Source: Sporopachydermia quercuum (Eukaryota > Ascomycota > Sporopachydermiomycetes > Sporopachydermiales > Sporopachydermiaceae). Taken from it: a stretch of 64,000 bases of DNA. A program made the translations under genes and the position numbers. This document shows, piece after piece, positions 3,130-50,734 of the stretch. Below the pieces are notes generated by a model. That model was not told the DNA's origin. It ran no database searches and saw only the letters and a program-made list of their open reading frames with translations. Where the stretch lies: positions 1,155,148 through 1,219,147 of the forward strand of contig BCGN01000003.1 in the NCBI GenBank assembly GCA_001599295.1. Reading direction: 5' to 3'. Position 1 is the stretch's first letter; every line of letters begins with the position of its first letter.

Positions 3130-5055
3130 ATGTCATTATTCAATAGACGTTTGAAGCATATCTCATCGCCAAATACATCAACGACTTCATCAACTACCTC
3201 TGCAAATATATCCAATACCGAAAGGACATATAAATGCTTTCCCTCTAGGTATTCTCATACAAGAGCTCGTTCCAAATCACCTTCTGATCACTGGAAAGTG
3301 AAACATGAAAATGACCACCCGTCTAATGACAGTACTTCGTATAATTCTTACCCGAGATCTGATAGAAACGAGTTAAACTTCCAGAGGAGGCATAGGGAAC
3401 TTGAATCACAATCGAAATCATTCTCACATAATGATCCACGAAATAGAACCAATCCAGAACCTCATACCCGTCAGAATTACTCGTCATCAATACCATCATT
3501 ACGAAGTAAATCCTCTTCATACAAGTCATCACGTAGCAATGAAAACGAAGATATAAAAGTTCAAAAATGGGTATCTCAAGAAGATGATTTTGCCCTACAA
3601 CAATATTTCCGTGGTTGCATGCTTAGAATCAAAGATAAGAGAGATAAACCAATTGATAGAATAGCGATTGTAGTGAAACTGAAAGATGGTATAGGAAGAT
3701 CAAATTTAGATCAAGAAGTATTTGAAAACGTTGCTGGTGTTGTTATACCGGAGCCCGCCTACAGTTTAATTGACAAATTAACAAAAGATGAGATCCCTGA
3801 GCTTTTAATGAAAGAAATTCCGAAATACAAGAATCTGGATACATCTAAGAAAGAGAATGTCGCTTTCTGGGAGAGTATTGAATTGTATAGTAAACACAAG
3901 TTAAAGATGCTAAACAATGAAGAAGATCCAGAGGATAAACTTGTGAAAGTGATGAAACATGATATAGACAAGGTTATCGATGGTAAGACACTGGATCAGT
4001 TGAATGACCTGCAGGCAAAAGTGAAGACCACTTTAAACTCCGATGCTGATGTAGACAAGGACTTCTGGACAGCTTTACATAAAGAGCTTCTAATACGAAT
4101 AGCAAGAGAACGTATTGATAAAATTCTTATTCGTGCTATAGATACTTTGGTTATGGAAATAAGCAGACTTCAAATGAGGGAATTATTCAAACACAAAGAG
4201 AAACAGGAAGAAGAAGGTATAAAGACGGAAAAGATGGAAAATGTTGGGAATGTGATTACGGTAAAAATAGAAGAGGACAAATTAGATGAGAAAACTGAAA
4301 ATAATCTGTTTCCCTCATTTCCTATATCCAACAATGAGCTTATCCCAAATGACTTGTTATACAGAAAAATTCAGCAGAATCCTTTGGATAAAGGGAAACT
4401 AATAAATGAGTATCAAGAATATCTTGCTGAGTATAGAAATTACTATAATTCTAATATCGCAGCTAATGCTAGGCCTATTACAACTGTTGTTAAAGTGCAA
4501 GTTCAAAAACCTATTGACCCTTCTAAAGCAACAGTTGATCCTTTTATTGATTCTGCTTTCAATTCTATCCCATTAAATGATGATCAAGTTGCTTTCAACA
4601 ATGATGAAAACCTAGTAAACATATTAGGAGATAAATATGCTAGCCAAAAGAACAACATAAAACCTAGGTTTCATAATCGCGTAAAACTTGGCTTTGAATG
4701 GAGCAATTATAACAGATTGCATTTCGATTCAGACAATCCCCCACCAAAAGTCGTTCAAGGGTATTATTTCAATATATTTTATCCGTTATTGAAGGATTCT
4801 CCCAAAACACCAACATTCAAAATACTTAAACAAGGGATTGCCAAAGGGAAGCTACAACATCCAGATAGTGGAATTGAAGAAGATACTTGTATTATATTAT
4901 TTCAGGCCCCTGAGCCTTATCAAGATATTGGTTTCAGAATAGTCGATAGACCATGGAATCGCCAATCACGAAATGAAGGTGGATTCAAATGTACTTTTGA
5001 AAACGGTGTATTACAACTTCATTTCAGGTTTAAGAAGTTAAGGTATCGAAAGTAA
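3130..5055 (+). CDS. CAY1: Cactin, spliceosome-associated protein
   Basis: Cactin family, known in S. pombe as Cay1 and in metazoans as a spliceosome-associated nuclear protein needed for accurate splicing. The protein has 641 residues. Residues 1-140 are Ser/Arg-rich and disordered. The mid domain begins near residue 147 with KWVSQEDDFALQQ and RIKDKRDKPIDRIA, matching the cactin central domain. The C-terminal cactin domain (about 515-641) is diagnostic: KPRFHNRVKLGFEW, DNPPPKVVQGYYFNIFYP, then RPWNR and the terminal HFRFKKLRYRK. It is a single exon starting at the first ATG. It is convergent with MPP10. To my knowledge Saccharomyces lacks cactin, so its presence fits a genome with many introns. 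Confidence 0.93.
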   Translation: MSLFNRRLKHISSPNTSTTSSTTSANISNTERTYKCFPSRYSHTRARSKSPSDHWKVKHENDHPSNDSTSYNSYPRSDRNELNFQRRHRELESQSKSFSHNDPRNRTNPEPHTRQNYSSSIPSLRSKSSSYKSSRSNENEDIKVQKWVSQEDDFALQQYFRGCMLRIKDKRDKPIDRIAIVVKLKDGIGRSNLDQEVFENVAGVVIPEPAYSLIDKLTKDEIPELLMKEIPKYKNLDTSKKENVAFWESIELYSKHKLKMLNNEEDPEDKLVKVMKHDIDKVIDGKTLDQLNDLQAKVKTTLNSDADVDKDFWTALHKELLIRIARERIDKILIRAIDTLVMEISRLQMRELFKHKEKQEEEGIKTEKMENVGNVITVKIEEDKLDEKTENNLFPSFPISNNELIPNDLLYRKIQQNPLDKGKLINEYQEYLAEYRNYYNSNIAANARPITTVVKVQVQKPIDPSKATVDPFIDSAFNSIPLNDDQVAFNNDENLVNILGDKYASQKNNIKPRFHNRVKLGFEWSNYNRLHFDSDNPPPKVVQGYYFNIFYPLLKDSPKTPTFKILKQGIAKGKLQHPDSGIEEDTCIILFQAPEPYQDIGFRIVDRPWNRQSRNEGGFKCTFENGVLQLHFRFKKLRYRK

Positions 5056-47207: not shown

Positions 47208-48985
47208 TATTAACAGATGTATAAATTGTCTAATATAATGCCTAGAATTTTAACTTAATACTTTAGTGTTATGTTTCTTAAGTTTCAAATTTGATATCTC
47301 TCTAAATGTTGTTCTAACTGCTAATGTGCATGTGCAATGTAAAACATAAAGAATGCTCAATGTACTATTAGTAGCTTGTGTAGTACGCTACAGGTTCCAT
47401 ACACGCTTAGATGGATTATCAGTGCTTGAGAAGTTAGAGAATACCAGTTAATAACTTATAAAATTCATCAATCATATACCAAATAAATAACGCAATTACC
47501 AATTGACAAATCTTTACTTATAAGAAAGATCTTTGTTTTCACTCAAGCTGGCAGGATATATCACCACAAGTTGTAACTACTCAATTGCAAGTTGGACTTA
47601 TGAAATCTATCACCACTGAACAAAAGGGGAACAACAACAACCTTGCACGAGGATCATAGCAACACTTCAATTCAGTAGAGAAGAAGTTCCTCGTAATTGC
47701 TAAGTTACCAAGATGTTCCTAAAATTTGTACTTTCCTTTCCTCTTATTTGTCTTTATATAGAGTGATGGCTACAATACAGCGCTCAATCATAAATGTTTC
47801 TGGTATAATTATCACTTCAAGGCAGTGAAAAAAATGAGCTTTCAACCTGAGATTTGGCGGAAGGGTCTGGGCAAGGTTAAAAGAATTGTAACGCTTTCAC
47901 AAATGTCTAGAAAGGGCAATAGAAAGCTTCAAGGAGGTGGAGGGTCTGGCGGAAATGATCGGATTGGTTGGTGAAAGGAGACGGGGAGTGAATATTGATC
48001 GTAGAATGTAAGTAGTACGGGAATGTGATATCGAATGAGATATTCTCAATTCTGGTTGGGTTTAGGAGTACTTATAAGAAGCCGGGATAATCATATAGCA
48101 GTATTTNGTTAGTGAACGTATGATAGATGGTAGTTATGATTATTGTTGATAAGATTTGAGGTCATATGTCATAATGTTTGATCTTCAGAGTCGATATAGG
48201 GTCTGGAAATAACGAGAACAAAATATGGGTTATTGACAAGAATAAGAATTTTCAAAATTGAATTAATTTAATAACACAATTTTTCAGGCATATTATAATC
48301 AAGTTTGCAGAAGTTTCCTTATTGATTTCAAGCCTTCTAAGTCGAATTGAGCGATCACACTTAACTCTTACTCCGACCACACTCACCATCACGTCTCAAG
48401 ATTGATAATTTGCATAAAAAGATGTTATGTTACCGTTTACAGTGGAGAGAGATGTGAGGTTGTGTCATATACATCTTCACAATATTGATATTTCTAGTTG
48501 TTTCACAGAAAGGCATATGAACATGGGAATCAATGAACAGGTGTGGGTTAAATAGCATCGGAAGTTGAAATTGGCCATTTTAACGGAATGATTTCATACT
48601 TAGTTCGTTACTTGTAATTGACATTGATGGTGACTCATAGGGTAGATATTGGTAAAAGGATCAATCAGTAAGACTTACCAAAACAGAAAATAGTGCAGTG
48701 TTTGTTCGAGACACAACAAGTGGATTCCATATGTTGAAGGAATAAAAGATAGAAAAATCAAGATAATTGATCGAAAGAAGTTGTTGTATTAAAAACAGAT
48801 TCTAGTAATTGTTGGGTCCTTTGTTGATTCCGCTTGATAGTCTCAAGTATAGGTGTCATCATTTCTGTTATTAGTATTGGTAGTAATCTAAAGGGCGAGT
48901 CCATTTGTTCAGTGCTCATTTCTAATTCACGCATACATATTCAACACATCCCAATTGCATCATTGTTTGATATTTATTCCTCATA
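47208..48985. other. Divergent intergenic region PMR1 / GMH1
   Basis: About 1.8 kb with both promoters. I found no ORF of interest, no tRNA-like B box and no repeat. One N at 48107. Confidence 0.5.
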
Positions 48986-49990
48986 ATGTCAGAAACAAGC
49001 TTCAGTAATTCAAACGATCATATATTCTCATCGGGGAATAAACTACGACATTCCAACTTGTCTTCAGTCTCATTAAACTCAGGATCATCAAGATTCAACT
49101 CCCCAGTCCCAATTGGTGCTCAAGCAGACACATATTCAGTACGAAGCGGACGATCTGTTCAATTTTCAGCAAATACAAGTAATGGAGGAAATCAGTTTCT
49201 GAGAAAAAAGCTGAACTATTCGCGAGTACCTGTGTTTTTCAAAAGGTAATACTAATTGATTTCATTGATTCCTTGAAATATGTCTAATTGGAACGCATTG
49301 CTAACCTCTAAATCTAGATTGCTGAAACCGCCAACTCTAGATTTTGAAACAGCCATTTGGGAAATATTCTATCTAGTGGTATCTCCTAGGAGAGTCTATC
49401 GCTCGTTATATTATCATGTATGTACACTTGTTCTGAAGATTATGATAGTTTTATGCATTACTGGGTGACTAACAATCATTAATAGAAACGTATGTGATGA
49501 GATCAATAAAGTAATTAACAAATTTGGGTTATGTCTAGGATCTATAACTTATATTAACATATTTCTTCCTTAAATAGAAACAAAAAACTCTTGGGCAAGA
49601 GATGATCCGTCATTTGTCATACTGATCACAGGCTTTCTTGTTGTTTCGGCGATTGGCTGGGGTTTAGCATATTCACCGAGTTTTTTTTCAATCCTAAAAC
49701 TGATTGTGTATATGGTTGTTGTAGACTTTTTCCTTTTGGGATTGGTAATTGCAACTGTTGGGTGGTTTTTAGCCGATCGTTTTTTACATGTGAAGCGAAG
49801 ATCAAGTGTTGACGGTATACTCGGTACTTCTAATATTGGGTCAGAAGGAGTTGGTACTGAGATTGAATGGGCGTATTGTTTTGATGTTCATTGCAATGCA
49901 TTCTTAATTGTTTGGATCGCTTTATACTTAATTCAGTTTATTTTGTTACCTTTGTTATCCTTAAATAACTGGTAAGTGTTGTTCCTGTTG

Positions 49991-50024
<34 letters not shown>

Positions 50025-50336
50025 ATTAGGAATATAGCTAACATATGCTTCAGGTTCTCTATTTTCTTGGGTAATTCTTTATACTTTGTCACCATAGTGT
50101 ACTACAGTATAATTACGTTTTATGGTTATAACAGTACGTTGATTTTTTTTTTTAGTTTATTTGCTATGGAAGTAGGAGAAAATTAGATCCTAACTACGCT
50201 TTTTGCAGCGTTACCATTTTTAGAACACACGCAGATAATTCTTGCACCAATTCCTGTATTATTTGTGTTGTACATCATATCATTAATACTGGGGTTCAAT
50301 ATTTCTAAAGCTATGGTTGATTTTTACTTCAACTGA
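48986..50336 (+). CDS. GMH1: Gmh1 / UNC-50 family Golgi membrane protein (six exons, one of 4 bases)
   Basis: UNC-50/Gmh1 proteins are five-span Golgi membrane proteins linked to Arf-GEF function (Gea1/Gea2) and receptor trafficking. Exons: 48986-49245, 49318-49417, 49486-49489, 49578-49971, 50054-50133, 50209-50336, total 966 bases and 321 residues. Introns are 72, 68, 88, 82 and 75 bases, each GT-AG with a CTAAC or TTAAC branch. Residues 1-80 are a Ser/Asn-rich tail; from FFKRLLKPPTLDFETAIWE on, the protein follows UNC-50: SPRRVYRSLYYH, KQTKNSWARDDPSF, IATVGWFL, EWAYCFDVHCNAF, FLGNSLYFV, YNTLPFLEHT, then LGFNISK. The KQTKNSWARDD block exists only if the 4-base exon AAAC is included; skipping it shifts the frame. 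Intron 4 is largely a TGA repeat. This is very intron-rich for a yeast gene. Confidence 0.92.
49486..49489 (+). other. GMH1: 4-base microexon of GMH1
   Basis: The four bases AAAC lie between a complete 3' signal (TGACTAAC at 49466-49473, then TTAATAG) and a complete 5' signal (GTATGT at 49490). The next intron ends TATTAAC (49552-49558) to AAATAG at 49577. Including AAAC gives CAT-AAA-CAA-ACA-AAA-AAC-TCT-TGG, that is HKQTKNSW as in the family. Skipping it leaves the frame wrong. Transcript data are absent, so this is an inference from sequence. Confidence 0.85.
49991..50024. repeat. (TGA)11 microsatellite inside GMH1 intron 4
   Basis: Thirty-four bases of perfect TGA repeat fill over a third of the 82-base intron 49972-50053, between the 5' splice site and the GCTAAC branch. 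Confidence 0.95.
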
Positions 50337-50734
50337 ACGAGAGTTAATTGATATAGGAACAATATAAACTGGAGACTGGGAAAATCAAATTTCAACATGA
50401 GAATCTCAGTAATATTCTAGTTTTCATATAAGGAGTCAAGTAAAACTAGTTGCTTTAGCGGCATCAGTTAAGCAATGTGAAAAATTTAAGTATGACACAT
50501 CTTACGATTGTATAAGTAGTTGCCAAATGAAGAAAAACAACGAGTGTTCATCTAGTAAACAAATATTGACAACTATGCTGTATTTTTCTACAAGTTCTAT
50601 CAGTTGGGCTACTTTACAATAAAATCTACAAAGATAATAAGTAAGAAAACGAACAAGTATCATTATTATCCGTCTAACTAAGGATTTACATGTTCATACT
50701 CATACAATTCCAACCATACTTTGTCAACTCTAAT
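50337..50734. other. Convergent spacer GMH1 / 158-residue gene
   Basis: About 400 AT-rich bases of 3' flanks. Nothing else is seen. Confidence 0.5.

Follow-up and report, generated by a model that had tools for sequence, protein, structure and literature searches.

A putative four-nucleotide coding exon in the GMH1 gene of Sporopachydermia quercuum

The window analysed here is a stretch of 64,000 nucleotides (nt) from contig BCGN01000003.1 of the yeast Sporopachydermia quercuum (positions 1,155,148 to 1,219,147 of the forward strand). It carries GMH1, a gene of the UNC-50 family, which very probably holds a real and obligatory coding exon of 4 nt, AAAC, flanked by introns of 68 nt (intron A) and 88 nt (intron B). 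The gene model was built from a direct reading of the region, with coordinates given for the window on the plus strand (Table 1). The first-pass annotation had proposed that the 160 nt at 49418-49577 are not one intron, and removing the whole interval indeed breaks the GMH1/UNC-50 frame. The internal 3' signal (GACTAAC to TAATAG), the AAAC at 49486-49489 and the second donor GTATGT that it had named were confirmed, as were the coordinates and the arithmetic. With AAAC the six exons total 966 nt, as had been claimed, and encode 321 amino acids (aa) with a single, terminal stop; the conserved UNC-50 block expected from its inclusion is present within a full-length match. Separately, a run of eleven TGA triplets (49991-50023), likely a length-variable tract, lies in the intron at 49972-50053.

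AAAC is bordered by complete splice signals on both sides, GTATGT/GACTAAC/TAG before it and GTATGT/TATTAAC/TAG after it. The branch-point A lies 14 nt from the 3' end of intron A and 21 nt from that of intron B, and in each intron the acceptor AG is the first to follow the chosen branch point. In the three other introns of the gene (72, 82 and 75 nt) the branch point is CTAAC, 13-16 nt from the end. The junction including AAAC reads TATCAT-AAAC-AAACAAAAAAC, while the junction skipping it reads TATCAT-AAACAAAAAACTC. When AAAC is skipped, 15 codons follow H120 before a stop (KQKTLGQEMIRHLSY, then stop), and early stops also arise if intron A, intron B or both are retained. Inclusion of AAAC is thus needed for both the frame and the conserved protein. 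A second motif, AATTAAC, occurs upstream of TATTAAC within intron B. The TAG ending at 49538, after this AATTAAC, is a possible alternative acceptor, the use of which would lead to a stop after 12 codons.

The predicted protein scores 317.5 bits against the UNC-50/GMH1 family (PF05216; cut-off 22.1 bits), with residues 84-320 covering profile positions 1-221 of 221. The truncated form obtained by skipping AAAC reaches 52.4 bits. Edited controls gave 313.6 bits (K to A), 314.3 (Q to A), 310.4 (both to A) and 302.4 (KQ deleted). On a 116-aa piece scoring 166.1 bits, replacing K by R, N or E gave 164.7, 163.3 and 163.4 bits, and replacing Q by K, E, H or S gave 164.2, 164.1, 163.8 and 163.4 bits. 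The K and Q encoded through AAAC are therefore the best-scoring residues among those tried, by small margins. Human UNC50 presumably also reads KQTK at this position. A six-frame search of the genome, which scores best candidates only, found the UNC-50 family at the GMH1 locus only, in three exon pieces. Protein-pattern searches of prokaryote genome and viral collections returned 28 and 4 stretches, respectively, none encoding a relative. A search of solved structures gave 14 matches (E 0.078-0.62) to designed armadillo-repeat chains, one of them labelled importin alpha, which were taken as chance.

The chance of the internal signal was estimated from 200,000 dinucleotide shuffles of the interval, with no branch point required downstream. 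The pattern CTAAC..YAG-(1-12 nt)-GTATGT with room on both sides arose in 2.8e-4 of the shuffles, and its frame-restoring version in 1.0e-4. With relaxed motifs the corresponding values are 3.4e-3 and 1.1e-3. At window composition, the probability that the 4-mer spells K and then Q adds a further factor of about 0.009.

Several ways of doing without the small exon were weighed. A single intron with another donor or acceptor, for example a GC donor at 49401 or GTACAC at 49422 joined to a downstream AG, would leave a small deletion or replacement in the protein. When all 188 donor-acceptor pairs with a GT or GC donor and any AG were enumerated, 18 did stay open. However, none of these uses the GTATGT donor at 49418, and all delete or replace part of the conserved block. 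Their donors (GCTGAA, GCCAAC, GCTCGT, GTTATA, GTACAC, GCATTA and GTGACT) include none of the GTATGT, GTAAGT or GTACGT type, and the two pairs that were scored, with the GC and GTACAC donors, reach 287.7 and 270.0 bits against 317.5 (losses of 30 and 48). A complementary DNA (cDNA) reading CATAAACAAACAAAAAAC would be incompatible with any of them, and we regard a single intron of this kind as very unlikely. Among 17 two-intron combinations tested between the same outer sites, six restore the frame and two are open: the one with AAAC and one with a 16-nt exon. The 16-nt exon was rejected; its donor is GTGACT, its acceptor is preceded by no branch point motif, and it scores 301.1 bits against 317.5 with AAAC. 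The exon AAAC is thus supported as the only arrangement found that combines the frame, good splice signals on both sides and the fit to the UNC-50 profile.

The DNA comes from one assembly, and a deletion of four (or 3n+1) bases near 49578 could hide a single 160-nt intron, the internal signals being coincidental; four missing bases would put that model in frame. Such an error would, however, have to coincide with an internal acceptor-donor signal (~1e-4) in which AAAC also spells the best-scoring residues tried. There are 0 ambiguous bases in 48500-50500, and further short exons of a similar kind are predicted in the same genome (see below), so that an assembly error has only a slight chance of being the explanation. 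AAAC could also be skipped and the frame rescued by -1 slippage on the A-run of AAACAAAAAAC: the skipped messenger RNA has six consecutive As, and a -1 slip regains the correct frame at the cost of the T residue only. Yet on the 116-aa piece the product reaches 156.3 bits, compared with 166.1 for the form with AAAC, the codons of the skipped frame form no canonical slippery heptamer, and the internal splice sites would go unused; the probability of slippage seems negligible. That the locus is unexpressed or a decaying copy is highly improbable too, given that this single UNC-50 locus was found in the best-candidate search and has a full-length match with no internal stop.

Some observations weigh against AAAC as an exon. 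The branch point of intron B (TTAAC, 21 nt) is weaker and more distant than those of the other four introns (CTAAC, 13-16 nt), and the preferences for K and Q amount to only 1.4-2.8 bits on the 116-aa piece. Moreover, the pattern CTAAC-YAG-(1-9 nt)-GTATGT is not enriched genome-wide, with 39 matches against 63 for the reversed control. The same holds for the motif with a GTAAGT donor (1-12 nt; 30 matches against 90 reversed) and for 10-24 nt before GTATGT (39 against 75). Taken by itself the motif thus counts for little, and it is context, frame and homology that carry the argument.

Other descriptions of the interval were considered and rejected. A stwintron has an external intron in which a splice element is interrupted by an internal one; here introns A and B each have an intact donor, branch point and acceptor. 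A recursive splice site, i.e. a zero-length exon, does not fit either, as four frame-required bases separate the acceptor from the donor. For an origin of introns A and B by duplication, the best local alignment consists of GTATGT only and scores 12.0 against a shuffled mean of 15.5, with 495 of 500 shuffles scoring equal or higher. AAAC flanks intron B on both sides, like a target-site duplication, but reading the sequence rejects this: both copies are coding, since removing one breaks the conserved K-Q-T-K frame. No second copy of 49418-49577 was found in the assembly by a search that skips simple repeats and very common words.

From the sequence we infer that AAAC is present in transcripts, and a removal order for its two introns can be proposed. 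Introns A and B would each be recognised across the intron, since neither lacks a donor, a branch point or a first-AG acceptor of its own. As 4 nt leave no room for the splicing machinery of two introns simultaneously, the two would be removed sequentially. Intron A probably leaves first, being the shorter one and having a branch point (GACTAAC) closer to the usual CTAAC than the TATTAAC of intron B. Its removal would leave exon 2-AAAC followed directly by a normal GTATGT donor, ready for a second round, which would resemble recursive splicing except that 4 nt are kept. RNAs that skip AAAC or retain an intron are predicted to be unproductive, because they shift the frame or meet a stop. GMH1 is thereby a tractable setting in which to study the sharing of a 4-nt exon by two splicing events and their order. 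It also matters for annotation: gene finders easily miss such exons, and an intact-looking conserved gene could automatically be annotated as frameshifted or truncated.

AAAC does not appear to be alone in this genome (Table 1). Each of the 39 places with CTAAC-YAG-(1-9 nt)-GTATGT was inspected in context; six have a GTA[ATC]GT donor close upstream, eight have [CT]TAAC..YAG close downstream, and three have both, namely GMH1, the gene of a CXXC zinc-binding protein with a 9-nt exon, and that of a UBA-domain protein with an exon of 10 or 4 nt. In the GTAAGT-donor set 21 of the 30 matches were read, two of them with signals on both sides (the 11-nt exon of the eIF4A-III-like gene and the 9-nt exon of the VPS13-like gene), and in the 10-24 nt set 9 of 39 were read. 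The candidate 17- and 15-nt exons were found through a GTATGT common to an intron among those listed. The simple intron pattern GTATGT-CTAAC-YAG has 280 matches against 190 for the reversed control, and a strict open-frame survey of 174 kb yielded three introns, too few for statistics. This was no census; at least six very short exons beyond that of GMH1 are predicted.

A fit to conserved proteins supports the exons of 9 nt (in two genes), 11 nt and 17 nt, and those of 15 nt and of 10 or 4 nt fit by frame. For the VPS13-like gene, the two VPS13_N scores come from a piece of 47 aa and are both below the 80-bit cut-off. The joined eIF4A-III-like protein has a gap-free alignment of 128 residues with human eIF4A-III that runs across the 11-nt exon. 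A nearer acceptor gives a 2-nt alternative exon that is also in frame, and the best NCBIfam model is uninformative on the 11-nt exon (105.9 bits with it, 106.0 without). This gene is itself related to a component of the exon junction complex. The 15-nt exon, in a TVP18-like gene, is backed by frame and signals only, since Pfam matches only sequence that follows it (26.5 against 26.9 bits, both below the 29.2 cut-off). In the UBA-domain protein, 10 and 4 nt both restore the frame, so the frame cannot separate the two acceptors. Together with AAAC, these six candidates suggest that annotations of intron-bearing yeasts may contain too few tiny exons.

Table 1 Exons and introns of GMH1 (window coordinates) and further candidate very short exons in the same genome
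Feature	Position	Strand	Length (nt)	Remarks
GMH1 exon 1	48986-49245	+	260	ATG start
Intron 1	49246-49317	+	72	GTAATA, TGCTAAC, CTAG
GMH1 exon 2	49318-49417	+	100	Phase 0 end after ...SLYYH
Intron A	49418-49485	+	68	Donor GTATGT, branch point GACTAAC, acceptor TAATAG
Putative microexon (exon 3) AAAC	49486-49489	+	4	AAA = K121, plus first base of CAA = Q122
Intron B	49490-49577	+	88	Donor GTATGT, branch point TATTAAC, acceptor AAATAG
GMH1 exon 4	49578-49971	+	394	Starts AA ACA AAA AAC = (Q)TKNSWARDD
Intron after exon 4	49972-50053	+	82	GTAAGT, AGCTAAC, CAG
GMH1 exon 5	50054-50133	+	80	
Last intron	50134-50208	+	75	GTACGT, TCCTAAC, CAG
GMH1 exon 6	50209-50336	+	128	Ends FYFN, then stop
Candidate exon GAAAGTCAT (ESH)	C3:594006-594094	minus	9	Two GTATGT introns; CXXC zinc-binding protein, PF05907, 99.6 bits with exon, 85.0 without
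Candidate exon GGATCCTAT (GSY)	C8:884490-884890	minus	9	Near start of VPS13-like gene; VPS13_N 76.6 bits with exon, 56.3 without
Candidate exon AATTCCTAGCT	C3:1115091-1115122	plus	11	eIF4A-III-like helicase; signals both sides
Candidate exon	C2:896243-896346	plus	17	Cullin; 81.9 bits with residues, 70.3 with them deleted
Candidate exon completing SLYGQW	C3:417991-418085	minus	15	TVP18-like gene
Candidate exon	C4:1863085-1863115	minus	10 (or 4)	UBA-domain protein; support from frame

Elsewhere in the window, a Cactin gene (PF10312, PF09732) lies at 3130-5055 on the plus strand. Cactin is a spliceosome-associated protein and is, to our knowledge, absent from S. cerevisiae; its presence is in keeping with a yeast that has introns. 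The reading of CTG was compared as Leu, Ser and Ala. In an oxoprolinase, Leu scores best in three of four domains (Hydantoinase_B 666.8 / 658.7 / 660.4), while a slight lean in the opposite direction is seen for its small C-terminal domain (26.6 / 28.0 / 28.2) and for Mpp10 (456.8 / 457.5 / 457.0). These scores give modest support for CTG being read as Leu in this genome.

Very short exons have been described in other systems. PMC4674806 and PMC8831610 treat plant microexons of 15 nt or less, among them a constitutive exon of 1 nt in APC11 of Arabidopsis. The same sources describe how plant tiny exons rely on intron definition, with their two introns removed stepwise, and are often absent from annotations. 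They resemble AAAC in being tiny coding exons, but they occur in plants, are supported by RNA and have demonstrated conservation across species. In Lipomyces, stwintrons and complex intervening sequences consist of short introns that adjoin or are nested and are removed consecutively under intron definition, as described in PMC7138796; in GMH1, by contrast, each intron is complete and four coding bases remain. The source also takes short fungal introns to be recognised across the intron. The first-pass annotation had called so short an exon hard to define by normal exon recognition, a difficulty that is less relevant in fungi; its proposal of a 4-nt exon nevertheless holds, on the grounds of frame, splice signals and fit to UNC-50.

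A fungal microexon in Xlr2 of Trichoderma virens decides by its inclusion how the protein is read, a regulated switch with two products. According to PMC11121469, experimental tests of fungal microexons had previously been made only in Schizosaccharomyces pombe. Inclusion of AAAC in GMH1 looks obligatory instead, since skipping yields only a frameshift. The available portions of PMC8022950, PMC13309789, PMC4022394, PMC4479816, PMC5499181 and PMC8476143 do not describe yeast microexons, and no literature was found that pairs GMH1 with a yeast microexon or Gmh1 with Yarrowia introns.

The closest likeness is found in Yarrowia lipolytica. As reported in PMC2911113, the shortest internal exon of this yeast is 4 nt long, lies in YALI0E34170g and was validated by two cDNAs. 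As in GMH1, the exon of this budding yeast is internal, is flanked by introns and measures exactly 4 nt; in Yarrowia it is confirmed by cDNA. Unlike those seen here, Y. lipolytica introns have a GTGAGT donor and a branch point about 1 nucleotide from the 3' site. The identity of YALI0E34170g is not stated at its one mention in the available text of that paper. AAAC might be ancient, i.e. the same exon as that of YALI0E34170g, preserved in GMH1 in widely separated yeast lineages, although we consider this doubtful. If true, the lineage of this yeast would maintain obligatory microexons in a group of conserved genes (GMH1, 4 nt; CXXC zinc protein, 9; VPS13, 9; UBA protein, 10 or 4; eIF4A-III-like, 11; TVP18-like, 15; cullin, 17), and unproductive skipping would be a possible control point. 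The rarity implied by the first-pass annotation was in any case overstated, given the cDNA-validated exon of Y. lipolytica and the other very short exons predicted in the same genome; AAAC of GMH1 belongs to a kind already known in budding yeasts.
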